Shown here: piece by piece, positions 6,106 to 23,471 of the stretch
Layout: the number at the start of each line of letters is the position of its first letter
Numbering within the stretch: the stretch's first letter is position 1
Virus record (IMG/VR): IMGVR_UViG_3300005529_000442
Coordinates: 1 to 24,913 of that record
Reading direction: 5' to 3' (one strand)
From: a virus
DNA: 24,913 bases
The notes under the pieces: generated by a model
The model's input: the letters and a program-made list of their open reading frames with translations, nothing else
Database searches by the model: none
What the model was told of the DNA's origin: nothing
Translations under genes and position numbers: made by a program

Positions 6106-6620
6106 TGAAGCCTATGAAAATTGGGTTGATGCTGCTTCTGCTATGGCCACTACTCGCTGACGCGGCGCCGCTTTGGCGCACGACACATGAGGGGACCATC
6201 GCCTGTTTTGTGGAGGACTCGCCCCATGCCGCGGAGGTAAAGTTGCATGAAGCACGCAAATCGGGCGCAGCCATGCCGCCTGGGTGCGGCCACCTAAAGA
6301 AAGGCTTCCAGTTTTCCCGCTATAACGAAGCCTGCTATCAGGCGCCCTGCGAACCCGGCGTCAACGATATAGACGCCTACGGCGCCGTCCTCAGAACCGA
6401 TGGGGATCGGGACTTCTTCTACGTTTCGGAAGCTGATACCGAACCAGTGCTCGACGCTGATGGCCAGCCAGTTTCTGATCCGTGCGATGCCGCCGGAGCC
6501 GGCGGCGAGTTCGACCGCCTGGAAGCCGCGCCAGACGGCCGGCTCTACCTCAAGCGCTACCTCTTCACGACGCGGTGCAAGGACGGGCGCGTGCAGCAGC
6601 ACGTCAAGCGGTTGAACTGA
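6105..6620 (+). CDS. Exported protein of unknown function, only plus-strand gene (moron-like)
   Basis: The protein has 171 residues from GTG at 6105 (GGAG 6 bases upstream) or 168 from ATG at 6114. Residues 4-22 (MKIGLMLLLLWPLLADAAP) form a clear Sec signal peptide with a small-residue cleavage region. The mature part is acidic and soluble-looking, with seven Cys residues (CFVED, GCGH, ACYQAPC, DPC, RCKDG), which suggests disulfides in the periplasm. I do not recognise a family. It is opposite to all other genes and convergent with the 90-codon gene, with a long GC-rich hairpin immediately after its stop. Slightly lower GC at its 5' end and the inverted position suggest a lysogenic-conversion or superinfection-exclusion type moron; that role is inference. 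Confidence 0.75.
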   Translation: MKPMKIGLMLLLLWPLLADAAPLWRTTHEGTIACFVEDSPHAAEVKLHEARKSGAAMPPGCGHLKKGFQFSRYNEACYQAPCEPGVNDIDAYGAVLRTDGDRDFFYVSEADTEPVLDADGQPVSDPCDAAGAGGEFDRLEAAPDGRLYLKRYLFTTRCKDGRVQQHVKRLN

Positions 6621-6657
6621 GCCCGCGCGTTCCCGCTGGGGCGGGCAACGCGCGGGC
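6621..6657. terminator. Long GC-rich hairpin between convergent genes
   Basis: GCCCGCGCGTT (6621-6631) pairs with AACGCGCGGGC (6647-6657) and CCCGC (6632-6636) pairs with GCGGG (6641-6645) around a TGGG loop, with a single C bulge. The 16-bp stem starts at the first base after the stop of the plus-strand gene and ends 9 bases before the stop of the minus-strand gene. There is no T-tract on either side, so it may act as a transcription barrier, an mRNA 3'-end stabiliser or a weak bidirectional terminator. Confidence 0.6.
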
Positions 6658-6666
6658 CCAGGGCCT

Positions 6667-6939
6667 TCAGCGCATCAGCTCCTCGGCGTTGCGCAGGTTA
6701 CGCGCCATGTCCACCAGGTTTCGCGCCCCATACAGCGCGGCCGAGGTCACAACGTCCTGGCCCTCGATGTGCAGCAGCACCAGGTCAATCATGGCCGAGG
6801 CGTTCTGCAACAGCATGCCGGCGTCCGCGGACAGGGCGGCCGCCGGCGTGTCGGGCGGGATGACGTAGGTCCCGGACATGGAGAAGAAGACCTGGGTCGG
6901 TTCAGGCCCGGGTTGCTGCTCTTGCGCTTGTTTGGCCAT
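6667..6939 (-). CDS. Small C4-RNA-controlled protein (position of ant/icd in P1-type loci)
   Basis: The protein has 90 residues. The ATG at 6939 is chosen because a perfect AGGAGG (6947-6952) lies 7 bases upstream; the frame stays open further upstream only through the structured leader. Residues 1-15 are Gln/Pro-rich and probably flexible. Residues about 33-85 are helical (AAALSADAGMLLQNASAMIDLVLLHIEGQ, YGARNLVDMARNLRNAEEL), with a faint resemblance to the small DUF3077/DUF6124-type proteins of pseudomonads (from memory, unverified). Its leader carries the complementary site of the C4-like RNA at the ribosome-binding site. It would therefore be silenced in the lysogen and made when the antisense RNA fails. 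An antirepressor, cell-division inhibitor (Icd) or other immunity role is inferred from context only. Confidence 0.75.
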   Translation of the reverse strand: MAKQAQEQQPGPEPTQVFFSMSGTYVIPPDTPAAALSADAGMLLQNASAMIDLVLLHIEGQDVVTSAALYGARNLVDMARNLRNAEELMR

Positions 6940-6950
6940 GGATGGCCCTC

Positions 6951-6967
6951 CTACTGGACTTTTGAAC
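6951..6967 (-). promoter_or_regulatory. C4 RNA target site 2, overlapping the Shine-Dalgarno
   Basis: The minus-strand sequence GTTCAAAAGTCCAGTAG is complementary to CTACTGGCGGTTTTGAGC in the C4-like RNA (7014-6997): 7 bp for CCAGTAG/CTACTGG, and 8 bp including one G-U for GTTCAAAA/TTTTGAGC. Its last two bases are the first two of the AGGAGG of the downstream gene. Pairing should block ribosome binding. Confidence 0.75.
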
Positions 6968-6988
6968 CCAATCCCCTTTTGAGAGGGA

Positions 6989-7064
6989 TGCCGGGCGCTC
7001 AAAACCGCCAGTAGACGGCGGGCGTATTCCCCCGAAGGGTCTTGTATTAGCCTCACGCCCGGCA
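6989..7064 (-). ncRNA. c4: C4-like antisense RNA (P1/P7 C4 family)
   Basis: This is a 76-nt element on the minus strand. TGCCGGGCG (7064-7056) pairs perfectly with CGCCCGGCA (6997-6989) as a closing stem. Inside are a CCC-UUCG-GGG hairpin (about 7039-7030) and a CCGCC/GGCGG hairpin (7021-7017 with 7009-7005), whose loop GTCTACT and following single strand TTTTGAG are free. These unpaired parts are complementary to two sites, 7123-7147 and 6951-6967, that flank the element. Known biology: the C4 RNA of P1/P7 is about 77 nt, has this tRNA-like closed shape, is processed by RNase P from the same transcript it regulates, and pairs with flanking a/b sites to silence ant. Size, shape, order and complementarity all agree. 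No covariance search was possible here. Confidence 0.82.
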
Positions 7065-7070
7065 AAAGCA

Positions 7071-7090
7071 TTGTGACCTTACGGCCACAA
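7071..7090 (-). promoter_or_regulatory. GUAA-tetraloop hairpin just upstream of the C4 element
   Basis: Minus-strand TTGTGGCC-GTAA-GGTCACAA forms 8 pairs with one G-U and a GNRA-type loop. It lies between the terminator-like hairpin and the 5' side of the C4 closing stem (6 bases before it), so it may set the 5' processing boundary of the antisense RNA. Confidence 0.5.
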
Positions 7091-7117
7091 AAAATCCGCA
7101 TGTCTATCGGGTGCGGA
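7089..7117 (-). terminator. Intrinsic terminator or attenuator in the C4 leader
   Basis: On the minus strand TCCGCA (7117-7112) pairs with TGCGGA (7100-7095) across an 11-nt loop, followed immediately by six T (7094-7089). It lies after the first C4 target and before the C4 RNA. It may end transcripts of the upstream tail genes or attenuate the C4 transcript itself. Confidence 0.65.
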
Positions 7118-7122
7118 CTCCG

Positions 7123-7147
7123 CTACTGGTGTAAAGGTGTTTTGAGC
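7123..7147 (-). promoter_or_regulatory. C4 RNA target site 1 (leader copy)
   Basis: The minus strand reads GCTCAAAA (7147-7140), a 10-nt spacer, then CCAGTAG (7129-7123). Both halves are perfectly complementary to the C4-like RNA segment 7014-6997 (8 bp and 7 bp). It begins about 6 nt after the expected transcription start, so it may compete with the ribosome-binding-site target or pair in cis. Confidence 0.7.
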
Positions 7148-7159
7148 ACCTGAGGCCGG

Positions 7160-7188
7160 AATCTACGCCGAGCTGTTCACTCCGTCAA
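7160..7188 (-). promoter_or_regulatory. Sigma70-type promoter for the C4 locus
   Basis: The minus strand shows TTGACG (7188-7183), a 17-bp spacer and TAGATT (7165-7160), a near-consensus vegetative promoter in otherwise GC-rich DNA. Start of transcription would be near 7153, just before C4 target 1. The -35 box overlaps the last codons and stop of the small membrane-protein gene that ends at 7177. Confidence 0.72.
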
Positions 7189-7326
7189 TACTGCTGTACA
7201 TCTTGCCGCGAGACGCCGGCGCAGTTCGGCATCGTCCCGCAGCAGCCGGCGGTGGAATTCGCGCCGCCGCGCCTGAGCCCAACACAGCATGCCGAAGGCG
7301 AAAAGGGCGAAGAGAAATGCATCCAT
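7177..7326 (-). CDS. Small single-span membrane protein
   Basis: The protein has 49 residues from ATG at 7326, chosen for the GGGAG 7 bases upstream. Residues 3-17 (AFLFALFAFGMLCWA) are hydrophobic enough for one membrane span. Residues 19-42 are strongly basic and helical (ARRREFHRRLLRDDAELRRRLAARC), predicted to face the cytoplasm. It lies between gpN and the C4 locus, 13 bases after the preceding small gene. The length and design are compatible with a small exclusion, holin-like or regulatory membrane peptide, but no family is recognised. Its 3' end doubles as the -35 region of the C4 promoter. Confidence 0.55.
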   Translation of the reverse strand: MDAFLFALFAFGMLCWAQARRREFHRRLLRDDAELRRRLAARCTAVLTE

Positions 7327-14003: not shown

Positions 14004-14333
14004 TCAGGCCGGCGCGCCGAGCGCGTTCAGCAGCAGCAGCGCATGCCCGTGGCTATCCGGCTTGGGCTTGCGCACCGTGAAGCTGACGCCGGTGCGGATG
14101 CAGGTGCACTGCTCGCCCTGGCGCGGCAGGCGCGGAAAATCGGAGACGCGGATGCCGACCGCCGGGCCGGTGGTCATCACCGGCACGCCGCCGGCGAGCG
14201 ACTCCTCCTGGTAGGCCTCGTCGTAGACGCCAGCGGCCTGGAACGGCTGCAGGCCGGCCAGGCTCCAGGTGAAGGGCTCGCCGAAAACCCCGAGCAGGGG
14301 CCCGATGACGAGGCTGTTCCAGTCCACGCTCAT
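14004..14333 (-). CDS. Head-tail joining protein (lambda gpFII-like)
   Basis: The protein has 109 residues, close to lambda gpFII (117). The layout fits: N-terminal helix with 'GPLLGVFGEPFTWSL', an unstructured middle, then 'VPVMTTGPAVGIRVSDFPRLPRQGEQCTCIRTGVSFTVRKPKPDSHGHALLLLNAL'. The latter corresponds to the FII beta-barrel pattern (PSL.V...D...LrrGd.v.I....f.V....pD..G...L.L). gpFII caps the portal-gpW complex and docks the tail. In lambda it follows gpE; here the homing endonuclease sits between them. Its ATG overlaps the endonuclease stop (ATGA, 14330-14333). Confidence 0.75.
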   Translation of the reverse strand: MSVDWNSLVIGPLLGVFGEPFTWSLAGLQPFQAAGVYDEAYQEESLAGGVPVMTTGPAVGIRVSDFPRLPRQGEQCTCIRTGVSFTVRKPKPDSHGHALLLLNALGAPA

Positions 14334-14989
14334 GCATCAGCCTCGCCGTTTCCCATGAGAAACGAATCAATACCCCAACGGGCGGCGCGTACCCGCGCGA
14401 TGACTTCCGGCGATCGCTTGCGGCGCATCTTGGCGATCACTTCCGGAGGTCGCGGCTTCCCACGCTTTGAAGCAGCAATGGTTTCGGATATCCGGGCGCG
14501 TTCTTCGGGCGTGCGCCGAGCGTTAGCTGCCGCCATCTTTGCAGCCAGTGCCGATCGCTGTTCCGGCGTTCTCTGCGCATGTACGGCGCGGAGTCGTGAA
14601 CGCGTTTCAGGAGAAACCTCTTTACCACGATGAATGTGCGAGATACGAAGCTTGAAGGATTCGGGCTGCGGGTGGCCGCTACGTCCATCACCGCCTATGG
14701 TGAGGTTATAACCACCACCAAACGTGCCAAACAAAGCTATGGCATCAATTTCAGCACGCGCCGCAGTCGGCCAGTCTGGATATGACGCGAGCTGTTCGAT
14801 GCCGAAGGCATCCGCACCATGCTTGCGAATCGCAGCACCGAGTAAGGTCTTGCACCGTAGGCTGGAACGTCTAGAGTTTCGGATATGTTCACCCCACCGA
14901 ACTCGGAGGGTCTTTGAGGTGATGCCTACATAGCACCTGCCATTTGCATGGCAGGTGACTAGGTAAAGCAAGACCTCACACGGGGACAT
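14330..14989 (-). CDS. GIY-YIG homing endonuclease with NUMOD3 repeats
   Basis: The protein has 219 residues from ATG at 14989, where the GIY-YIG module begins; the frame upstream is only the capsid gene out of frame. Domain order: GIY-YIG catalytic module at about 6-100 with 'LLYLVT' (7-12), 'CYVGITSK' (19-26), Arg31, His35 and the likely metal-binding Glu80, ending 'GGYNLTIGGDG'. Residues about 110-200 then hold three NUMOD3-type DNA-binding repeats (SPETRSRLR, TPEQRSALAAK, TPEERARIS). Free-standing members cut unoccupied alleles in rival phages and spread by repair. It separates the capsid and head-tail joiner genes. GC near its 5' end is about 52% over 100 bases, clearly below its neighbours, which suggests recent arrival. 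The last codons contain palindrome copy 3. Confidence 0.92.
   Translation of the reverse strand: MSPCEVLLYLVTCHANGRCYVGITSKTLRVRWGEHIRNSRRSSLRCKTLLGAAIRKHGADAFGIEQLASYPDWPTAARAEIDAIALFGTFGGGYNLTIGGDGRSGHPQPESFKLRISHIHRGKEVSPETRSRLRAVHAQRTPEQRSALAAKMAAANARRTPEERARISETIAASKRGKPRPPEVIAKMRRKRSPEVIARVRAARWGIDSFLMGNGEADA
14348..14363. repeat. 16-bp palindrome, copy 3 with one mismatch
   Basis: Plus-strand GTTTCCCATGAGAAAC differs from the other three copies at one base. It lies within the last codons of the endonuclease gene, 15 bases before the head-tail joiner start. Read on the minus strand its ATG is in frame with the endonuclease and would give MGNGEADA, ending on the ATGA overlap. Confidence 0.8.
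14934..14957 (-). promoter_or_regulatory. 10-bp hairpin with GCAA tetraloop in the endonuclease 5' coding region
   Basis: On the minus strand CACCTGCCAT pairs perfectly with ATGGCAGGTG around a GCAA (GNRA) loop, 32-56 nt into the endonuclease mRNA. Hairpins near the start of phage homing-endonuclease genes are known to limit their expression (for example in T4). The same role here is inference. Confidence 0.55.
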
Positions 14990-15002
14990 AAGCTGCGCTT
15001 GA

Positions 15003-16199
15003 TCAGGCGCCGGCGCGACCTGTGCGCAGCACCTCCGGCCTCGTAACGATGTGCAGCGGGTACGAATACACCTCCATCTTCCACCAGGCGTTGCGGTCCC
15101 GGTCGATGATGGGGATGACGTAGACCGGCTTGCCCGGGGTGTTGACCCACTCGAAGGTCTCGCCCGGCGCGTAGGCGACCTGGAAGACGCCGGGGGCGCC
15201 GACCGGGAAGAACTTGACCTTGTCGTCCGGGATCTTGATGGTGCTGTTGTCGTCCGAGCCGCGGTAGTTGACCCAGTTGATGCCGCCGAACTCGAACGAG
15301 CCGAACGCCGCGCCCTGGGTGCCGCCGCGGATGTCGCGCGCATCGCTCCAGTTCAGAAAGGTGCGGATGACGTCCGGATGGTTGACGAAGCTGTCGTAGA
15401 AGCCGTCACCGCAGAGGGCGTAGACCTGGGTGCTCGGCAGGAACGCGCCCTGCGCCGAGCGCGCCATGCTGCGGATGATCTGGTTGCACAGCGGGCGGAT
15501 CGAATTCGCCGTGCCGGCCGACAGGTTGAAGCCGATCTCCGCCGCGGCCTGGACGCCGAACTCGGCGAAGTAGTCGTAGTACACCGAGCCGTCCGCATCG
15601 AGCAGCTTGCCCTGCAGCGCCGCCAGGCGGTGATATTCCCAGGTGTACTCGATGTTGCTGGTCAGGCCGGTGGGGCCGTTGAGGCGGCGCGCCACTTCGG
15701 TCTGCAGCTGCATCAGCTCGGTCTCGGTGCCGAACTGGCGGATGCTCTGCAGCTCGTCGGCCTTGATGGTGTCGTCGTGCATCAGGCGCGGGCACTCGAA
15801 GTAGCGCGCCTGGCGCTTCTCGGTGGTGCGCTGGGTGCCGTCCGTGCCGCGCTGGCTGAACGGGATCAGCACCAGCTTGCCCTGCCGCTGCTCGATGATC
15901 AGCGCCTTGGTGCGGATCGGGAACGGCTCGAAGATGCCGAGGGAGCCGATGCCGGTCGGCCGGTAGGGCGCCTTCTCGATCGCGCTGGTCAGCTGGATGG
16001 TGGTGAACGGATCCGTGTGGAACACGTCCATGCTGATGCCGGCGAAGGCGACGAGCAGCAGGCCGCCATGGCCGATATCCGCGGCCGGCAGGGCGGCAGC
16101 CTCGGCGGGAGTGAGGCCGGAGACGGCGAACAGGCAGCCTGCCACCAGCGCGAACAGCGCCGCGGCCGCCCAGGAGAAGCGGGGGAACAGCTTGCTCAT
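15003..16199 (-). CDS. Major capsid protein (lambda gpE family) with hydrophobic N-terminal extension
   Basis: The protein has 398 residues. ATG at 16199 is chosen for AGAGGA 7 bases upstream; no Shine-Dalgarno precedes the internal Met57. From residue 57 (MDVFHTDPFTTIQLTSAIEK) the protein follows the gpE/Phage_cap_E pattern: 'EPFPIRTKALIIEQRQGKLVLIP', 'FECPRLMHDDTIKADELQSIR', 'HRLAALQGKLLDADGSVYYDYF', and a C-terminal 'FFPVGAPGVFQVAYAPGE...RPEVLRTGRAGA'. Residues 1-56 are unexpected: a 20-residue hydrophobic segment (9-28), a signal-peptidase-like 'PAEAAALPA', and a second hydrophobic stretch (45-56). They may be a delta-like domain removed by the head protease, or a membrane anchor. A terminator-like hairpin lies in the 76-base gap before it. 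Confidence 0.92.
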   Translation of the reverse strand: MSKLFPRFSWAAAALFALVAGCLFAVSGLTPAEAAALPAADIGHGGLLLVAFAGISMDVFHTDPFTTIQLTSAIEKAPYRPTGIGSLGIFEPFPIRTKALIIEQRQGKLVLIPFSQRGTDGTQRTTEKRQARYFECPRLMHDDTIKADELQSIRQFGTETELMQLQTEVARRLNGPTGLTSNIEYTWEYHRLAALQGKLLDADGSVYYDYFAEFGVQAAAEIGFNLSAGTANSIRPLCNQIIRSMARSAQGAFLPSTQVYALCGDGFYDSFVNHPDVIRTFLNWSDARDIRGGTQGAAFGSFEFGGINWVNYRGSDDNSTIKIPDDKVKFFPVGAPGVFQVAYAPGETFEWVNTPGKPVYVIPIIDRDRNAWWKMEVYSYPLHIVTRPEVLRTGRAGA

Positions 16200-16218
16200 G
16201 GTTGAGTCCTCTTTCTTC

Positions 16219-16253
16219 AAAGAAAAACCCCGCCTCGAGGCGGGGCGGGGTTT
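16219..16253 (-). terminator. Terminator-like hairpin upstream of the major capsid gene, two alternative folds
   Basis: On the minus strand CCCCGCC-TCGA-GGCGGGG (16245-16228) is followed by TTTTTCTTT, a textbook intrinsic terminator. An overlapping alternative pairs AAACCCCGCC (16253-16244) with GGCGGGGTTT (16234-16225) across a 9-nt loop. It lies between decoration (stop 16276) and capsid (start 16199) genes and ends 12 bases before the capsid Shine-Dalgarno. Confidence 0.75.
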
Positions 16254-16275: not shown

Positions 16276-17202
16276 TTAGCGCGCGATGATGCCGATGGCG
16301 GCGAGGGCGGCGAGGCCCGCGGTGATCTGCGCCGGGGTGTAGCTGGGATCCCAGATCAGCTCGGAGGCGTTGACCTCGCAGGACCGCGTAACGACGGCGC
16401 AGGCCACATCGCCCAGCGTGGCGTCGCGGGTGCCGTACAGGATGCCGGCCGGGGTCTGGCTGCCGTCCACCGCGGTGGCGACGCTGGTCAGGAACTTGCC
16501 GGCACCGGCGGCGGCGGCGACGGTGACGGTGAAGCTGTCGCCGGCGACGAAGGCAGTGCCGCCCGCGGTGATGGTGAAGCCCAGGCCGCCGCCGCTGAAG
16601 GCCGTGCCGGTGACACCGTGGCCGACTTCCTGGCCGTTGGGCGCGGTGACGACGAAGTGGGTGGCGTCGTCGAACTCCACGCCATAGACGCCGAGCTGCG
16701 GGGCGTGGCCGGTGGTGGTGACTGCGCTGCTGGTGCCGTTGCCGGTGTTGCCGCCGCCGGCGACGGCCACGGCGCTGGGCTTGTCCTGCGCGTCGGTGGT
16801 GGTGATGGCGAAGGTGTCGCCGGCCACGAAGGCGGTGCCGCCCGCGGTGATGGTGAAGCCGATGCCCAGCGCGCTGAACGCGACGCCGGTGCTGCCATTG
16901 GCGGTCTGGCCGTTGGGCGCGGTGACGGTGAAGTGCGTGGCGTCGGTGAAGACGAGGTTGTAGACGCCGATCTGCGTGGGCACCGCCACCGGGGTGATGG
17001 CGCCGAAGGTGCCGTTGCCGGTGTTGGTGCCCAGCGCCGCGGCGACCGCGGTGGCGCCGACCGTCTTTTTGCCGAGCACGGTGCCGGCGAGGACCTTGGC
17101 CGCGCCGGTGAGCACGGCCTGGTCGATGTAGCGGTGGCCGTTGGCCTGGGAGACGAGAAATCCGCCGTCGTGCCAGGTCTCGTTCAGGGGAGTCTGTGCC
17201 AT
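16276..17202 (-). CDS. Head decoration protein (gpD-like) with two inserted repeat domains
   Basis: The protein has 308 residues against about 110-130 for the HDPD/lambda gpD family. The family body is split. Residues 1-50 hold 'FLVSQANGHRYIDQAVLTGAAKVLAGTVLGKKT'; residues about 236-308 resume with 'ATAVDGSQTPAGILYGTRDATLGD...NASELIWDP...ALAAIGIIAR', the standard C-terminal half. Between them are two tandem homologous units, about 61-134 and 153-227, each with the pattern TGNGT...GVYxxxFxDATHFxVTAPNG...GxGFTITAGGTAFVAGDxFxIT. Decoration trimers stabilise the expanded capsid; the insert should project outward as a surface domain. ATG at 17202 follows AGAGGA by 8 bases. Immediate neighbours are scaffold and capsid, as expected. 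Confidence 0.88.
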   Translation of the reverse strand: MAQTPLNETWHDGGFLVSQANGHRYIDQAVLTGAAKVLAGTVLGKKTVGATAVAAALGTNTGNGTFGAITPVAVPTQIGVYNLVFTDATHFTVTAPNGQTANGSTGVAFSALGIGFTITAGGTAFVAGDTFAITTTDAQDKPSAVAVAGGGNTGNGTSSAVTTTGHAPQLGVYGVEFDDATHFVVTAPNGQEVGHGVTGTAFSGGGLGFTITAGGTAFVAGDSFTVTVAAAAGAGKFLTSVATAVDGSQTPAGILYGTRDATLGDVACAVVTRSCEVNASELIWDPSYTPAQITAGLAALAAIGIIAR

Positions 17203-17264: not shown

Positions 17265-18032
17265 CTACTTCAGGTCCGGGCGGACCTGCTTCATTGCGCG
17301 GTCCCAGCTCGCCTGGGAGGCCTGGGCACTGGTGTGGCCAAGCTCGCCGCCCGGACCCAGGTGCGGGTTGCGGTCGGCGCGCTGCTGCTGGCCGGCGCCG
17401 CTGGCTGGCGTGCCGCGAAGGACATCTAGCGCTTCGGCGCGGGAGAGCGTGGTGTTGAAGGCCAGCTTTGCGGCGAGCTGCGGATTGCGGGCGGCGGCGC
17501 GGTCGTTGAAAATGGCGGCGCAGCGCTGGCGCTCGCGGCGCCGGGCCTGGGCGATGGGGGAGTTGCCGCGCATCTCCTCCTCGTCGTCCCCATCCTCCAT
17601 CTCCTCGTCCTCGGACTCGCCGGAGTCGTCGGCCTTCTTGGACTTGCCCTTCTTGTCCTTGGGCTTGTCGTTTTCCTCTTCCGCGTAGTCCTTGTCGTCG
17701 TCGCCCTTCTCGGACTTCCCCTTCTTCTTGGAGTCGCCGTTGGAGCGGTCCTGGTCCTCGTGCTCGTCGTCCTCGTTGCCGCCCTCAGCGCCGGCCTCCT
17801 CGTCGCCGCCTTCGGCCTTGCCCTTCTTGCCCTTCTTGTCCTTGGGCTTGCCGTCTTCCTCTTCCTCCTCTTCGCGCTCGTCGTCCCCGGAGGCCTTGGG
17901 CTTGCGGGTGCCGCCGCGGCCGAGGCCGGCCAGGTGCGAGAAGGAAAGGGCGCGGCCGAGGCTGGCCATGAGGGTGGGCGCGGACGAAACCGTGCGCGGC
18001 GCGGCAAGGCCGGCCTTGAGCTGTGCAGCCAT
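17265..18032 (-). CDS. Capsid scaffold-like protein, acidic/lysine-rich
   Basis: The protein has 255 residues from ATG at 18032, chosen for AAGGAG 8 bases upstream; a GTG at 18041 overlaps this spacer. Residues 1-45 are small and hydrophobic. Residues about 46-155 are extremely charged, alternating Glu/Asp runs with PKDKKGK-type lysine clusters, and must be disordered. Residues 158-208 form a helical module (ARRRERQRCAAIFNDRAAARNPQLAAKLAFNTTLSRAEALDVL) of a type seen at the end of S49 protease-scaffold proteins. In lambda the scaffold (Nu3) is encoded inside the protease gene C. Here it is a separate gene 21 bases after the S49 gene and before decoration and capsid. The scaffold role is inferred from position and composition. 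Confidence 0.7.
   Translation of the reverse strand: MAAQLKAGLAAPRTVSSAPTLMASLGRALSFSHLAGLGRGGTRKPKASGDDEREEEEEEDGKPKDKKGKKGKAEGGDEEAGAEGGNEDDEHEDQDRSNGDSKKKGKSEKGDDDKDYAEEENDKPKDKKGKSKKADDSGESEDEEMEDGDDEEEMRGNSPIAQARRRERQRCAAIFNDRAAARNPQLAAKLAFNTTLSRAEALDVLRGTPASGAGQQQRADRNPHLGPGGELGHTSAQASQASWDRAMKQVRPDLK
17643..17850. repeat. 25-bp direct repeat inside the scaffold gene
   Basis: CTTGCCCTTCTTGTCCTTGG plus five more bases occurs at 17643-17667 and again at 17826-17850, 183 bp apart (61 codons, in frame), encoding the same KPKDKKGK segment. Recombination between the copies would delete 61 codons of the disordered region without a frameshift. Confidence 0.85.
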
Positions 18033-18053
18033 GGATGTCACTCCTTGCTTGGT

Positions 18054-18914
18054 TTATCCCAGCTCCTGGAGCAGGGCCTGAAATGCGGCGTCCGGCGCCA
18101 TAACGGCGTCGGCGAAGCCGAGGTCGACGCCGGCGGCGCCGAGGTAAGTGGCGGCCTCGGTGGCACGCACGCGCGAGGCCTTGAGGCCGCGGTTGCGCGC
18201 GACCGTGTCGACGAACAGCTCGCCCATGGTGTCGACGTCGGCCTGGAAGCGGGCGAGCGCCTCCTTGCTCAGCGGGATGACCTGCTGGCCGTCGGCCTTG
18301 CGCTTGCCGTACTGGATCAGCGTGACGTTGATGCCGCTCTCGCTCAGCGCCTGGCTGAAGTCGACGTGCATGCAGATGACGCCGACGCTGCCGGTGCCGC
18401 CGGTGCGCGGCACGATGATGCGGTCGGTGGCGCTGGCCAGGGCATAGGCGGCGGAATAGGCGTATTCGCTCAGCACCGACCAGATCGGCTTCTCGCCGCG
18501 CACCTGGTAGACCGCGTCGACTAGGTCGAAGCAGCCCGCCACCTCGCCGCCGGGCGATTCGATGTCCAGGACGATGGCGCGCACCGCCTCGTCCTCGAGC
18601 GCCATCGAGAGGCAGGCGCGGATCCCGTCGTAGCCGGTCATGCCGCTGTATGGCCGCATGGTGCCGAGCTTCTGCACCAGGGTGCCCGTGACCGGGATGA
18701 TCGCCACGCCTTCCACCACCTGGTACGGCCGGCTCTCGGCCGGCTCGTCCTCCAGGCCGAAGCTCTCGATCGCGAGCGTTTCGCCGTTGGCGTTGAACAG
18801 GTGCGCGATGCCGAAACGGTCGGCCAGCGCGGCCATGACCAGCTCCGCCTTGCGCGGCGTGATCGCCAGCGGCACGTTGAACAGGCGCTGGGCGAGGTGG
18901 GGCAGGTTGCGCAT
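18054..18914 (-). CDS. S49-family prohead protease (lambda gpC-like)
   Basis: The protein has 286 residues. The S49/SppA-like fold is clear: 'VEGVAIIPVTGTLV' (68-80), 'GYDGIRACLSMALEDEAVRAIVLDIESPGGEVAG' (94-127) with the conserved SPGG oxyanion motif, nucleophile Ser154 in 'YAYSAAYALAS', then 'GTGSVGVICMHVDFSQAL' and the general base Lys206 in 'KRKADG'. Such proteins cleave scaffold, portal and capsid N-termini during prohead maturation. The N-terminal 60 residues (NLPHLAQRLFNVPLAITPRKAELVMAAL) are the usual phage extension. Unlike lambda C, no scaffold is fused at the C-terminus. The ATG overlaps the M50 protease stop (TGATG at 18914), so the two proteases are translationally coupled. Confidence 0.92.
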   Translation of the reverse strand: MRNLPHLAQRLFNVPLAITPRKAELVMAALADRFGIAHLFNANGETLAIESFGLEDEPAESRPYQVVEGVAIIPVTGTLVQKLGTMRPYSGMTGYDGIRACLSMALEDEAVRAIVLDIESPGGEVAGCFDLVDAVYQVRGEKPIWSVLSEYAYSAAYALASATDRIIVPRTGGTGSVGVICMHVDFSQALSESGINVTLIQYGKRKADGQQVIPLSKEALARFQADVDTMGELFVDTVARNRGLKASRVRATEAATYLGAAGVDLGFADAVMAPDAAFQALLQELG

Positions 18915-19417
18915 CAGCGCACCAGCTCGGCGGCCGGCCGGCCGAGCAGCCAGCGGGCGATGTGCGCACCGTCGAACGGCGCGAACGGCAGCAGGTTGAT
19001 GACGGCCATCGAGGCGTTGACGATCACGCCGGCGTGGCCCATCGCCTGCAGGCCGGGAGCGACGTCCATCCGGCTCAGGGCATACCAGGCCAGGCTCATC
19101 GCGAGGTTGGCGGCCGGGCCGGCGGCGTGGACCAGCGCCAGGTCGCGCCGCGGGCGACGCAGCAGGCGGCTGTTGATCGGCAGCGGCCGGCCCCAGCCCA
19201 GGACCAGACCGGTGCCGGTGAGGATCAGCAGCAGCGGCAGCACCAGGGTGCCGGCCGGGCTGACGTGGCGCAGGGGGTTGAGGCTGAGGCGGCCGAGCGC
19301 CCGCGCGGTGCCGTCGCCCAGGGCCAGCGCGGCGTAGCCGTGGGCCACCTCGTGCAGGGTCAGGGCCAGCAGCACCGGCAGTAGCCAGACCGCCAGGGTG
19401 ATCAGCGTTGCGTTCAC
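18914..19417 (-). CDS. M50 (site-2 protease-like) intramembrane metalloprotease
   Basis: The protein has 167 residues, starting with GTG at 19417 that overlaps the portal stop (GTGA). It has all landmarks of the small bacterial site-2 protease group (YwhC-like): the zinc motif HEVAH (His22, Glu23, His26) inside a first hydrophobic helix; 'GRLSLNPLRHVSPAGTLVLPLLLIL' (42-66); 'GWGRPLPINSRLLRRPRRDLALVHAAGPAANLAMSLA' (74-110); and 'NLLPFAPFDGAHI' (141-153) with the third zinc ligand Asp149. Three to four membrane spans are expected. It should cut substrates within the membrane. The family is common in bacterial chromosomes but is not part of any phage head set I know. Overlaps on both sides show it is an established member of this operon, not a loose insertion. 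It is slightly shorter at the C-terminus than typical members (about 200-220). Confidence 0.9.
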   Translation of the reverse strand: MNATLITLAVWLLPVLLALTLHEVAHGYAALALGDGTARALGRLSLNPLRHVSPAGTLVLPLLLILTGTGLVLGWGRPLPINSRLLRRPRRDLALVHAAGPAANLAMSLAWYALSRMDVAPGLQAMGHAGVIVNASMAVINLLPFAPFDGAHIARWLLGRPAAELVR

Positions 19418-21078
19418 TTCGCCTCCGTCGCGGCTTGCAGCGATTTGTCGTCCGTCCCGCCGGCGCCGATCCAGGACGGGTAGGGCAGCCCGCGGTCGGC
19501 GTAGGCGCGGCGCTCGATCTGCCGCTGGTCGAGCTGCTCCTCCCAGTCCTCGCCGTAGAGCTCGGCGGTCTCGCGCTTGAGCGTGCCCATGCCGATATCC
19601 ATGGCCATCGCCGAGCCCTGGATCTCCTTGGGCTTGTCGATGAAGCCGCGGCCAGGGCCGAGCCAGCCGCAGCGGGAGTACTCGGTCATCGCCTCCTGGT
19701 AGGACGGGGCGTCGTCCGGCAGCGGCACTTCGCCGCGCTCGAACTCCTCGGCCAGCCAGGTGGCATACATCGGGGTGGCAGTCTCGGCGCAGAACTCGCT
19801 GCGCCGGCGCACCACGGTCTTCCAGGCGTCGGCGAGGGCACCGCGGAGGTTGGAGTAGTTGCTCTTGCTCCAGTCCTGGCTGACCTGCTCGATGGTCTGG
19901 CCGGTGCAGGCGGCGAAGACGCGCAGCATCTCCTGCGCGAACGGCGTGAACTCGGTGTGCGGGTGCGCGCCGCTGACCTGTTCGATCTTCTCGCCGGGCG
20001 CCAGGGTGGGCACGCGCACGCCGCCCATCATGGCGGGGCGCTCCTTGTGCCAGTCCGCGCGCAGGCTCTGGTACCGGGACAGGTCCGCGTTGCTGCCGTC
20101 GTCCAGGGCGTCCGAGACCTGGGCGGGATCGTAGGGGCTGGTGACGTAGGTGCCGAGCACGCTGGCCAGGGTGGCGGCCTGCAGCTCGACGCCGTAGTAG
20201 CGCGCCAGCATCTTCATGTGGGCGATCACCGGCGCGAAGATGCCGATGCCCCGGGACTGGCCGGCGCGCTTCTTCTCGTAGCCGTGGAAGACGCGCTGCC
20301 AGCCGTCAGGGTCGTGCTTCTCGACGCGGTCCCAGATCATGCTCTCGACGGCGTTGTACCAGTCGTTCTGGTGCGCGCGGCGGATGTGGTAGGCGATGTG
20401 GGCGCCGTCCTCGTCCAGCTCCACGCCGCCGCGCAGATAGCGGGTGTCGACCATCTGGTACGGGTTGGACAGCCGGTCCGGGTCCACCACCTGGAAGCAG
20501 GTGGCGTAGCGCGCGGCGCCGGCGCCGATCAGCTCCGGCTTCCAGTACGAGACTGCCAGGTTGTCGCCGTCGACCAGCTTGTGCGACATCATGAGGTACC
20601 ACTGCTGCCCCATGGTCTGCTCGCGGGTGACGTCGTTGAAGTGGTTGACGTCGTAGGCGAACGTGCGCCAGCAGGCCTCGACGTACTTGCGGAAGTCGTC
20701 CGCCCACTTGGCGTCGAATTTCTTGCTGAACCGCTGCAGCGCGCGGTAGTCCGGCGAGGCGTGCAGCCTCAGGTCGCATCCCAGGGTGTTGTCCAGGATG
20801 CGCATGATGCCGCCGACGATCCAGCCGTCGTTGCGGTACAGGTCCCGGCTGCGCGCGACCATGCGGTCGCGGAACTGGTTGATCTCGGCGTCCGGGCTGC
20901 GGATCCACGGCAGCCAGTCGCCCATCTCCTGCGACTGCCAGCGCGCCGCCTCGTAAGGGAAGACGCTGCGCGCGTAGCCGTCGCCGCCGGGATAGCCCGG
21001 TGCGCCGTCCGCGCGGGCGCGCAGGGGCCGGCCGCTGCTGTCGACCAGCACCGGCAGGTTGGCTCGGGGCGCGGCCAT
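19414..21078 (-). CDS. Portal protein (lambda gpB family)
   Basis: The protein has 554 residues, close to lambda gpB (533). The ATG at 21078 overlaps the gpW stop (TGATG); the same frame stays open far upstream through terminase but is not coding there. Family features: 'YEAARWQSQEMGDWLP' and 'RDLYRNDGWIVGGIMRILDNTLGCDLRLHASPDY' near the N-terminus, 'QWYLMMSHKLVDGDNLAVSYW', 'VDPDRLSNPYQMVDTRYLRGGVELDEDG' and 'CTGQTIEQVSQDWSKSNYSNLRGALADAWK'. The portal dodecamer is the DNA entry channel and binds terminase and gpW/gpFII. In lambda, gpB is trimmed at its N-terminus by gpC; the protease is encoded two genes downstream, after the unusual M50 gene. The firm family pattern and context make this call secure. 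Confidence 0.95.
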   Translation of the reverse strand: MAAPRANLPVLVDSSGRPLRARADGAPGYPGGDGYARSVFPYEAARWQSQEMGDWLPWIRSPDAEINQFRDRMVARSRDLYRNDGWIVGGIMRILDNTLGCDLRLHASPDYRALQRFSKKFDAKWADDFRKYVEACWRTFAYDVNHFNDVTREQTMGQQWYLMMSHKLVDGDNLAVSYWKPELIGAGAARYATCFQVVDPDRLSNPYQMVDTRYLRGGVELDEDGAHIAYHIRRAHQNDWYNAVESMIWDRVEKHDPDGWQRVFHGYEKKRAGQSRGIGIFAPVIAHMKMLARYYGVELQAATLASVLGTYVTSPYDPAQVSDALDDGSNADLSRYQSLRADWHKERPAMMGGVRVPTLAPGEKIEQVSGAHPHTEFTPFAQEMLRVFAACTGQTIEQVSQDWSKSNYSNLRGALADAWKTVVRRRSEFCAETATPMYATWLAEEFERGEVPLPDDAPSYQEAMTEYSRCGWLGPGRGFIDKPKEIQGSAMAMDIGMGTLKRETAELYGEDWEEQLDQRQIERRAYADRGLPYPSWIGAGGTDDKSLQAATEAK

Positions 21079-21350
21079 CAGAACTGCGGCGAGATCGCGG
21101 CGCGGCGGTTGATGCACTGGCCGTTGGCGCGGTCGATCTGCGTCTGCAGCGTGAGGATGGCCTGCACCAGGTCGCCGAGGTTGGCGCGGGTGTAGGTCAC
21201 CGACTTGCTGCCGTCGCCCTGGGCGTAGCTGGCCACTTCCGCCTTGCCGCCGCTGGTGAGGTCCAGGTAGGCCTGCTGCAGGGCGGCCAGGCGCGACTGC
21301 AGCGTGGCGATGTCGATGCCGTCGAGGATGCTGGTGCGGCGCGTGAACAT
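21078..21350 (-). CDS. Head-tail connector gpW
   Basis: The protein has 90 residues. 'DIATLQSRLAALQQAYLDLTSGGKAEVASYAQGDGSKSVTYTRANLGDLVQAILTLQTQID' is the classical gpW fold: helix, beta hairpin with the 'SY.qGD.Ksv.Yt' strand, helix. gpW binds below the portal after DNA packaging and prepares the site for gpFII. The order terminase large, W, B is the lambda order. The start at 21350 lies 9 bases after the terminase stop (21360). The protein is a little longer than lambda gpW (68) by a basic C-terminal tail. Confidence 0.93.
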   Translation of the reverse strand: MFTRRTSILDGIDIATLQSRLAALQQAYLDLTSGGKAEVASYAQGDGSKSVTYTRANLGDLVQAILTLQTQIDRANGQCINRRAAISPQF

Positions 21351-21359
21351 CTGCAGCTC

Positions 21360-23471
21360 CTAGGCGAGACGGCTGGCCAGCGAGCGCCGCTCGGGCGCTC
21401 CCGCCGGCGCCGCCCCGGGTTTCCCATGGGAAACGGGCGGCGTCGGCGGTGCAGTGGCGGTCGCTGGGTTGTCGGGTGAGGCCGGCGCCTGGGCGTCGAC
21501 CATGGTGTTGTTGTCCCAGGGCGCGGCCCAGGGAAAGGGCTGTTCCCAGTTGATGCGCGAAAGGCCGTGCAGGTGCGCGGCGACGTGCGTCAGGACCATC
21601 AGGTCCAGCGCTTCGTTGCGCGCGTTCGCGGACTTCTTTTCCCAGCGTCCGTCGGCGCGGCGGTGCTCCGCGGCGAGCTGCTCGAAAAACGGGTGCGGTG
21701 CTTCCTTGGCGCGCAGGCCGCGCGGGAAGTGCACGTAGCCCGGGCCGGGCTCCGCCACCTTGAGCTGGGCGACGAGCCCGTCCTTGAACAAGTTCGGGTT
21801 GAACGAGGCCAGCGGCACCTGGCCGCGGGCGATCTTGCCGGCCTTGCGCTGCGTGTCCGGGTAGACGACGACCAGGCGCTGGGCGTTGACGGCCTTGGCG
21901 CCCTTGGACGGCAACAGCGACCACGCCTCGCGGCCGTTGATGAGGCCATAGGAGCGCAGCTTGCGCCGGCGGTGCCAGCGGATGAAGGAGCCGTAGGCCT
22001 GGTCGGTGACGCCGGGCACGCCCTGCGAGTCGAAGATCGCGCCGCGCGGCCGCATATGCCGGCCGCTGCCATCGGCCAGTGGCCAGCTCTTGCTCAGCAC
22101 CTGGTCGAGCAGCTGGTCCCAGTCCTCGGGTGAGGTGTCGACCGAGGCCGGCAGCTTGCCGTGCTCGATGATCCAGCTCTCGCCCTTAACGCCCCAGCCG
22201 CGCACGAGCCACTCGAAGTGCGCCGCCTGGATGTCTGCCGCGACGGTGATGAAGCGCACGCCGTCCGGCACGACACCACGCGTGAGCGACGACTCGGCGC
22301 GCTCGGCCAGGACGTTGGCGTCGACCGTGCCCTCGGCCTTGAGCGTGAGGCGCGGGTAGCCCCACTGCTTGGCCATGACCTGGTGGAAGGTCTTGATGGC
22401 GTCATCGCCGCCGTTTTCGGCGTCGCGCTCGGCCTTGGCGCGGGCGCGCGCCAGGGCGCCGATGCCGCCGTCGACGAATAGGCTCATCGTGCCGACGATC
22501 CAGAAGCCGGCAATGCGGTGTGGCTGCAGCTCGCCGGTGACGACGCCGTCCTCGCTGATCTCCTGGCCGAGGCCGACGTAGCGGCCGTAGCGCAGCATCT
22601 CGCGTCGGTAGCTGTCCTCGATGTGGCAGCCGGCGGTCGGGCAGATCAGGCGCGCTTCGGCCTGCACCTCGTCGAGCGGGGCGTTGGCCGGATACCAGAG
22701 GCCCATGTGCCGCGGCGCGATCGGGATCGGGCTCGACCAGGCGCCGCAAAGCGGGCAGGGCCAGTACCACATGCGCCGGTCGCTGTCGCGGTACCAGGCG
22801 AGGATGCCCTCGGTCCACTTCTCCGGGTCCAGGCCGTAGGCCAGGTCCGGGTGGCTCATGCCCAGGATCTTGCCGTGGCGCCCGAAGTTGGTGATGCGGA
22901 CGTCGAACTGCGCCTTCACGTCTCCGAGCGAGCGCAGGTAGGCGTCGATCTCGTCGGCGACGATGCGCGGCGCCGTCTTGCTGATCAGGTTCGCCTGGGT
23001 CGCCGACAGGAACTCGGCGCGCATGCCGGCGAAGCGCTTGAACTTCATGCTCCGGTCTTCGGGCCGCGAGCCGAGGCGGCCGGAGAGCTGCGGGTGCAGC
23101 TCGATCATCGGGTTGATCTGCGCCTTGACGTAGGCGTCGCGCAGATCGTCCGTCGGCATGTACCACAGCATGTCGCCCGGATCCGTGGCCACCGACTTCA
23201 GCAGCCAGTTCTCGGCGATGCTGGTCTTGCCGCTGCGGCCAGGGCCCACCACGGCCACCGCCTGGTGCTCCAGGGACGTGAGGCAGTCCATCGGCTCGAC
23301 CAGGAACGGCGCGAGCTCGTGGTTCCACGGGCCGGAGTAGGCACCGGCGGGATTCGACAGCAGGCGCTTGCGGGCCGCGTACTGCGACACCGTCTCGCGC
23401 GCGCGCGGCCGGAGGATGTCCAGCACGTCGCGGAACACCGCGCGGGCGGAGGCGTAGGGTGCGTCGAGCAT
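21360..23471 (-). CDS. Terminase large subunit (lambda GpA family)
   Basis: The protein has 703 residues (lambda GpA 641). The ATPase has Walker A 'GPGRSGKTS' (76-84) and Walker B-type 'RIVADEIDAYL' with Asp173/Glu174. A zinc-binding-like 'CPLC' and 'CPTAGC' insert follows, as in many GpA proteins, then the nuclease half with 'VRFITVAADIQAAHFEWLVRGWG' (acidic active site), 'AIFDSQGVPGVTDQAYGSF', and 'NEALDLMVLTHVAAHLHGL' near the end. It packages DNA and, in this family, cuts cos ends. Residues from about 655 are an Ala/Pro-rich disordered tail. Palindrome copy 4 falls in this tail and encodes VSHGKP. Start at 23471 is 4 bases after the small subunit stop. Confidence 0.95.
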   Translation of the reverse strand: MLDAPYASARAVFRDVLDILRPRARETVSQYAARKRLLSNPAGAYSGPWNHELAPFLVEPMDCLTSLEHQAVAVVGPGRSGKTSIAENWLLKSVATDPGDMLWYMPTDDLRDAYVKAQINPMIELHPQLSGRLGSRPEDRSMKFKRFAGMRAEFLSATQANLISKTAPRIVADEIDAYLRSLGDVKAQFDVRITNFGRHGKILGMSHPDLAYGLDPEKWTEGILAWYRDSDRRMWYWPCPLCGAWSSPIPIAPRHMGLWYPANAPLDEVQAEARLICPTAGCHIEDSYRREMLRYGRYVGLGQEISEDGVVTGELQPHRIAGFWIVGTMSLFVDGGIGALARARAKAERDAENGGDDAIKTFHQVMAKQWGYPRLTLKAEGTVDANVLAERAESSLTRGVVPDGVRFITVAADIQAAHFEWLVRGWGVKGESWIIEHGKLPASVDTSPEDWDQLLDQVLSKSWPLADGSGRHMRPRGAIFDSQGVPGVTDQAYGSFIRWHRRRKLRSYGLINGREAWSLLPSKGAKAVNAQRLVVVYPDTQRKAGKIARGQVPLASFNPNLFKDGLVAQLKVAEPGPGYVHFPRGLRAKEAPHPFFEQLAAEHRRADGRWEKKSANARNEALDLMVLTHVAAHLHGLSRINWEQPFPWAAPWDNNTMVDAQAPASPDNPATATAPPTPPVSHGKPGAAPAGAPERRSLASRLA
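21419..21434. repeat. 16-bp palindrome GTTTCCCATGGGAAAC, copy 4
   Basis: This is an exact copy within the terminase large subunit 3' coding region, about 60-75 bases before the stop, in the part encoding a low-complexity tail. It is 7071 bp from copy 3. Being read in a different frame from the copy in the endonuclease gene, it is conserved as DNA, not as protein. Confidence 0.9.

Follow-up and report, generated by a model that had tools for sequence, protein, structure and literature searches.

A site-2 protease gene between the portal and prohead protease genes of a lambda-type phage, found together with a signal-peptide-like extension of the major capsid protein

When pro-sigmaK is bound to the site-2 protease (S2P) SpoIVFB, the N-terminus of its pro-sequence lies outside and the protein itself is cytoplasmic, and the cut is made inside the membrane-spanning pro-sequence; the linker/CBS region of SpoIVFB helps to bind this substrate (PMC11486902). 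A membrane is also involved in the assembly of T4 heads, as T4 proheads remain membrane-bound until maturation cleavage, so that the head is tied to the inner membrane and released after proteolysis (PMC9958956), a course of events resembling the one that we propose below. In T4, however, the membrane-bound part is the portal and not the capsid protein, and the protease is the soluble prohead protease. The lambda-type head operon, finally, provides the gene order against which our locus can be read, with gpA, gpW, portal, S49, gpD, and gpE homologues following one another.

The window analyzed here is the whole stretch of 24,913 nucleotides that makes up positions 1 to 24,913 of IMG/VR virus record IMGVR_UViG_3300005529_000442, and all features given below lie on its (-) strand. 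Judged by Pfam, its head operon is an otherwise ordinary lambda-type one in which the homologues keep the same order, namely the terminase large subunit gpA (21360..23471; PF05876 and PF20454), the head-tail joining protein gpW (21078..21350; PF02831), a lambda-family portal protein of 554 aa (19414..21078; PF05136, E 2.9e-87), an M50 protein, the S49 prohead (head maturation) protease of 286 aa (18054..18914; PF01343 and phrog_53), a highly charged ORF that is probably the scaffold given its position and composition (17265..18041; no Pfam match), a gpD-type head decoration protein of 308 aa (16276..17202; PF02924), and the gpE-type major capsid protein. A terminator-like hairpin (16227-16246) separates the gpD-type and capsid genes, and the same hairpin is present in a second phage introduced below. 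Directly downstream of the capsid gene we also observed a GIY-YIG endonuclease gene (14330-15013; PF01541). Compared with a lambda-type operon containing S49, the window thus adds the M50 gene between portal and S49 as well as an extended capsid protein, both of which are absent in 63 distinct relatives.

The added gene (18914..19417; GTG start at 19417, stop at 18914) encodes a protein of 167 aa that reads MNATLITLAVWLLPVLLALTLHEVAHGYAAL...NLLPFAPFDGAHIARWLLGRPAAELVR. It matches the Pfam profile PF02163 with 38.5 bits, where the curated cut-off is 27.2, which places it in MEROPS family M50, the site-2 intramembrane metalloproteases. The four motifs on which this identification had originally been based (HEVAH, NPLRHVSPAGT, AGPAANL, and NLLPFAPFDG) were all recovered from the ORF. 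In a 20-row alignment (A2), His22, Glu23, and His26 of the zinc-binding and catalytic motif HEVAH (residues 22-26; 19340..19354) are invariant, and so are Asn141, Pro147, Asp149, and Gly150 of NLLPFAPFDG (18968..18997), where Asp149 is the third zinc ligand. The set formed by HExxH and the distal Asp ligand (His22, Glu23, His26, and Asp149) is thereby shared without exception with the cellular relatives.

An AlphaFold2 model of the M50 protein is confident (pLDDT 88.8) and has mjS2P of Methanocaldococcus jannaschii (3b4r) as its top Foldseek hit, with probability 1.00. The seven best structural matches returned by VIA-align are all S2Ps (Z 12.1 to 8.2), comprising RseP orthologues, mjS2P, an integrative RasP-EcsA model, and SpoIVFB with pro-sigmaK. 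Unrelated rows appear from Z 7.9 down, a modest margin under the lowest S2Ps, and the family assignment is carried by the sequence motifs and Pfam. RseP (E. coli, Kangiella) gives the best match (7w6z, Z 12.1, 137 residues, rmsd 3.1), but it exceeds 400 aa in these structures, whereas the phage protein consists of the membrane core only. The match to mjS2P (Z 10.3 over 133 residues) likewise leaves out the flanking gate helices, which are missing from the phage protein. SpoIVFB shares the S2P core fold (8vjl, Z 8.8, 131 residues, rmsd 3.4); the phage protein, ending 18 residues after Asp149, is without the C-terminal linker and CBS domain of the SpoIVFB type, and no partner resembling BofA or SpoIVFA was seen. 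By profile, motifs, and modeled fold, the gene is a true member of the S2P family, and proteolytic activity is predicted for its product.

The origin of the gene can be traced to some extent. Its 80 best genome relatives are 42-54% identical over 145-165 aa and chromosomal, mostly from gammaproteobacterial records. These "site-2 protease family proteins" have the same HExxH, N-x-x-P-x-x-P-x-D-G, and re-entrant loop motifs, and the chromosomal loci that we read have the gene order Sua5/YrdC-like, M50, TrpS, ScpA, ScpB, RluB. At least one of Sua5, TrpS, ScpA, and ScpB is nearby in 71 of the 80 loci, and none of the 80 gave a match to the phage portal, S49, terminase, or capsid protein. In contrast to the phage protein, the cellular relatives usually measure 211-230 aa, sit in this housekeeping context, and carry C-terminal helices; since the phage protein stops so soon after Asp149, some 50 C-terminal residues, i.e., the last helices, have been lost. 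Neither PHROGs nor PADLOC gave a match for it. On these sequence comparisons, the phage gene is a captured one, probably corresponding to the S2P core of a protease from a gammaproteobacterial chromosome, and the donor can be placed only to Gammaproteobacteria because the phage pair stands on a long stem in the tree.

One other phage with the gene was found, namely IMGVR_UViG_3300013767_000215 (L003), which has it at the same portal-S49 site and is about 77% identical overall. Between the two phages, dN and dS amount to 0.178 and 0.53 for M50 (dN/dS ~0.34), close to the capsid core (0.175 and 0.52), and to 0.138 and 0.45 for the portal. One may ask whether the gene is nothing but a passenger without a role, or an assembly artefact. 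Its rarity is in keeping with this, but its presence on two separate contigs at ~77% identity with dN/dS ~0.34 and all catalytic residues kept is not, and the signature of purifying selection and sequence conservation largely refutes such a reading, which we regard as scarcely credible. With an intact homologue in the same place on an independent contig, the gene is not a chance ORF by sequence comparison.

Beyond this pair, no phage with the gene was encountered. For the relatives examined, we could confirm the claim that such a gene is absent from lambda-type head operons, as it is present at this site in none of 63 distinct M50-less operons (counted as distinct capsid sequences with both junctions visible); 58 of these have no gene-sized insert at the portal-S49 junction, and 5 have a longer insert, which was a GIY-YIG gene in the cases looked at. 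Eighty relatives found by portal show the junction without M50, and no PF02163 match was obtained anywhere in 43 other related phage records. A tblastn search of 50,697 phage records brought up no phage head operon carrying such an M50, and scans of IMG/VR with the M50 pair and profile yielded no second independent lineage. A third contig of the lineage (L084) ends inside the portal gene, before the M50 site.

Several candidates were rejected along the way. The IMG/VR loci L202 and L203 and the "phage" records MT835961, MT835598, and MT835614 hold a bacterial M50-trpS or M50-scpAB locus, OR846731 gave neither a phage nor a Sua5/TrpS/Scp match, and in L208 a partial M50 frame is fused to unrelated sequence. 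As a side note, apparent phage genes (e.g., a sheath-like one in L203) adjoin the chromosomal M50-trpS or M50-scpA genes in L202 and L203 and perhaps mark prophage ends, and the three MT records, UNVERIFIED "bacteriophage" entries with a bacterial M50-scpAB locus, possibly reflect bacterial contamination. The record of the second phage has some peculiarities of its own. Its S49 (6494-7300) is about 68% identical to that of the window, with dN/dS ~0.62, whereas 70-74% identity to the latter is reached by the S49 proteins of several M50-less relatives; the copy in L003 thus seems to evolve fast or to have been exchanged. Elsewhere in that record, an Lcl_C-domain protein, a bAvd-like protein, and a reverse transcriptase (PF00078) follow one another (L207:14164-18844), likely forming a diversity-generating retroelement, and an ISL3-family transposase adjoins an S24/HTH repressor-like protein (L207:5793-8825), pointing to a temperate phage that carries an insertion element.

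The gene is tied to its neighbors by overlaps on both sides. As the earlier note had read from the sequence, its start codon overlaps the portal stop codon by GTGA (19414..19417) and its stop codon overlaps the S49 start codon by TGATG (18912..18916). The further argument that such fixed overlaps speak for a late function is no more than half right: the overlap with the portal gene is identical in L003, but the one with S49 measures 1 nt in the window and 11 nt in L003. Coupling to head assembly, on the other hand, is supported by the overlaps and the conserved position together with the lack of a promoter-like site between 15800 and 21500, owing to which we expect its expression to go along with that of the head genes.

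This expectation bears on an unlikely but by no means negligible alternative, namely that the gene is a moron acting on the host, whose product acts late in infection or in lysogeny by cutting a host membrane protein (e.g., an anti-sigma factor), and for which the site among the head genes is simply convenient. The gene does derive from a host protease, S2Ps typically act on regulators (see the review PMC10202637), and the S24/HTH repressor-like protein in the record of L003 suggests a temperate phage. Moreover, the portal-S49 junction tolerates cargo. A gap of ~880-900 nt is found there in six loci (L087, L097, L104, L142, L150, and L152), each with a GIY-YIG-like ORF, which Pfam confirmed in both loci tested. 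An expression program shared with the head genes fits such a role less well, and the alternative also leaves unexplained why the capsid protein of the same two phages has changed.

That change concerns the start of the major capsid protein (15003..16199), which measures 398 aa from the ATG at 16199. PF03864 covers residues 67-394 only (E 1.6e-91), so that the Pfam domain begins past a hydrophobic, signal-peptide-like N-terminal extension of 56 aa (16032..16199), which among relatives is present only in the window and L003. In the window the protein begins MSKLFPRFSWAAAALFALVAGCLFAVSGLTPAEAAALPAADIGHGGLLLVAFAGIS-MDVFHTDPF and in L003 MIRKLFPSSGATMALVALLVASVLAVAGITPAEAAALPIPHFSDTGLMLVAFAGIS-MDVFNQDPF, whereas relatives start with M-A-S-LDVFHQD or close variants. 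The 56 codons upstream of the core are open in both phages, up to an ATG behind an AGAGGA or GAGGA-like site, which in the window is a ribosome-binding-like AGAGGA 7 nt before the ATG (16207..16212). An internal start at MDVF was rejected, as MDVF lacks a preceding ribosome-binding-like site, which the upstream ATG has in both phages.

By eye and by hydropathy, the extension has the layout of a Sec signal, with MSKLFPRF, SWAAAALFALVAGCLFAVSGL, and TPAEAAALP as n, h, and c regions. Its hydrophobic helix (residues 8-29; 16113..16178) reaches a maximum 19-residue Kyte-Doolittle mean of 2.25, and 2.49 in L003. The signal-peptidase-I-like (A-x-A) site TPAEAAALP follows (16086..16112), with all nine residues identical in L003 although six of the nine codons are synonymously changed, and the extension closes with LVAFAGIS (16032..16055), which adjoins the capsid core, is identical in L003 at eight of eight residues, and is a candidate region for the M50 cut. 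This last part belongs to a second hydrophobic stretch (residues 47-56, LLLVAFAGIS) that is weaker and, by a crude scale, falls short of a good transmembrane segment. AlphaFold2 modeled the capsid protein poorly (pLDDT 56).

A hydrophobic N-terminus of the capsid protein is absent from all 63 distinct M50-less relatives, in each of which an ATG lies at most six codons from the core, and other relatives retrieved by means of the capsid protein or its N-terminus had plain starts too. The locus L177, considered for a time as a relative with the extension, was rejected for its plain start (MAS-LDIF). Scans with the capsid N-terminus found no second lineage with an extension, and the hits inspected from a profile of it, run over 369 genomes of one class and 399 of one order, were plain starts or chance hydrophobic frames. 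The DNA pattern of TPAEAAALP was found in nine stretches, among which only L165, from the L003 contig, gives any match to the phage proteins.

As a whole, the extension evolves fast (dN/dS ~0.73 between the two phages), which taken alone is weak evidence for selection. We turn to a crude neutral simulation in which 44 random substitutions, the observed number of nucleotide differences, were placed with a GC-rich composition in 20,000 runs. TPAEAAALP was kept in 0.2% of the runs and LVAFAGIS in 0.3%, the peak hydropathy of L003 was reached in 0.5% of the stop-free runs, and 32% of the runs gained a stop. Hydrophobicity and the two motifs are thus kept more than the simulation gives. Because it ignores transition bias and two small gaps, and because the motifs were chosen after the alignment had been viewed, these figures are a guide and not a set-level test.

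The conserved motifs also allow two other accounts of the extension to be weighed. Host signal peptidase I alone might remove it at TPAEA/A, leaving the M50 protein to degrade the leftovers as RseP does. The A-x-A motif, unchanged in the two phages despite six synonymous changes, would suit this account, as would the RseP structures among the top structural matches and the elimination of signal peptides from the membrane by RseP (PMC8144685). It has no need, however, for LVAFAGIS, which lies past the signal-peptidase motif and is fully conserved as well, and M50-type proteases are already part of the hosts' own repertoire (PF02163 matches in all 14 control genomes); we deem it improbable. Alternatively, the two traits may be unrelated: the extension may be an added structural or scaffolding part that the S49 prohead protease deals with, and the M50 protein may serve another purpose. 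T4 prohead proteases do remove N-terminal peptides of head proteins (PMC9958956), and a fast-evolving extension confined to one lineage would be compatible with this. Yet the extension reads as a membrane signal with n, h, and c regions and not as a charged scaffold domain, and both phages retain a scaffold-like, charged ORF apart from it. We consider this account very improbable.

The M50 gene and the capsid extension occur together in both M50-bearing phages, and neither occurs in the 63 distinct M50-less relatives, which suggests that the protease may free a membrane-held capsid precursor. The window and L003 form one clade (support 100 in the portal tree, 94 in the capsid tree) and hence represent one joint event at most, so the link between the traits is correlative. 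A random single gain of the extension would fall on the stem of the two phages with a probability of 0.058 on the portal tree and 0.012 on the capsid tree, values whose true weight is lower because the co-occurrence was found post hoc by looking at several neighboring genes. The gpD tree, by contrast, puts L085 and not L003 closest to the window, and as L085 is without both traits, the operons must have recombined. The pairing has been kept through some exchange, which is not the same as a second origin.

How could the two traits work together? We propose that a minimal S2P would be produced from the late operon alongside the head proteins, and that it would most likely act on the major capsid protein of the phage itself, synthesized as a pro-protein whose N-terminus carries a membrane segment of 56 aa. 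Residues 8-29, the hydrophobic helix, would insert into the inner membrane with the A-x-A motif facing the periplasm, where host signal peptidase may cut, and the stretch 47-56 would lead back to the cytoplasm, giving an N-out/C-in orientation like that of pro-sigmaK bound to SpoIVFB (PMC11486902). The M50 protein would then cut at or near 47-56 and release the capsid core (MDVF...), and assembly would wait for this release. The proposed substrate would resemble pro-sigmaK in being cytoplasmic with an N-terminal membrane pro-sequence, but it is a capsid protein and not a sigma factor, and the likeness is drawn from sequence. Cleavage by the M50 protein of a pro-capsid protein inserted in the membrane, in the manner of SpoIVFB and pro-sigmaK, is in our view plausible though somewhat short of probable. 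The full account, in which a membrane-anchored major capsid precursor is freed by a dedicated intramembrane protease of the head operon, that is, regulated intramembrane proteolysis in the service of capsid assembly, we put forward more tentatively.

Critically speaking, this proposal has its weak points, i.e., the marginal second segment, the missing C-terminal helices and linker, and the single lineage. Instead of holding the capsid protein, a signal peptide could bring about its export, and the association may be a single coincidence. The earlier note listed cleavage of a membrane-held virion precursor as the first of its options and did not mention the capsid extension, even though it is evidence for that option. 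The evidence is real but circumstantial, as the extension occurs only in M50 phages and both genes are conserved, with cleavage as the step that we infer. The pairing with an extended capsid protein makes that option, as a hypothesis, the leading and a testable one.

Within the collections searched and a partial literature search, the place of the M50 gene in a head operon is unreported; that literature search found neither an S2P in a phage head operon nor a tailed-phage capsid protein with a membrane pro-sequence. Should the link to the capsid protein fail, the locus would remain a clear case of an essential phage operon that has captured a housekeeping protease of a host. If the link is true, it would mean that phage capsid assembly can start at the membrane and be gated by intramembrane cleavage. 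The phage protein would then also serve as a natural S2P of compact size whose substrate is known and abundant, and the pair would offer a direct way to ask whether HK97-fold capsids assemble from membrane-held subunits.
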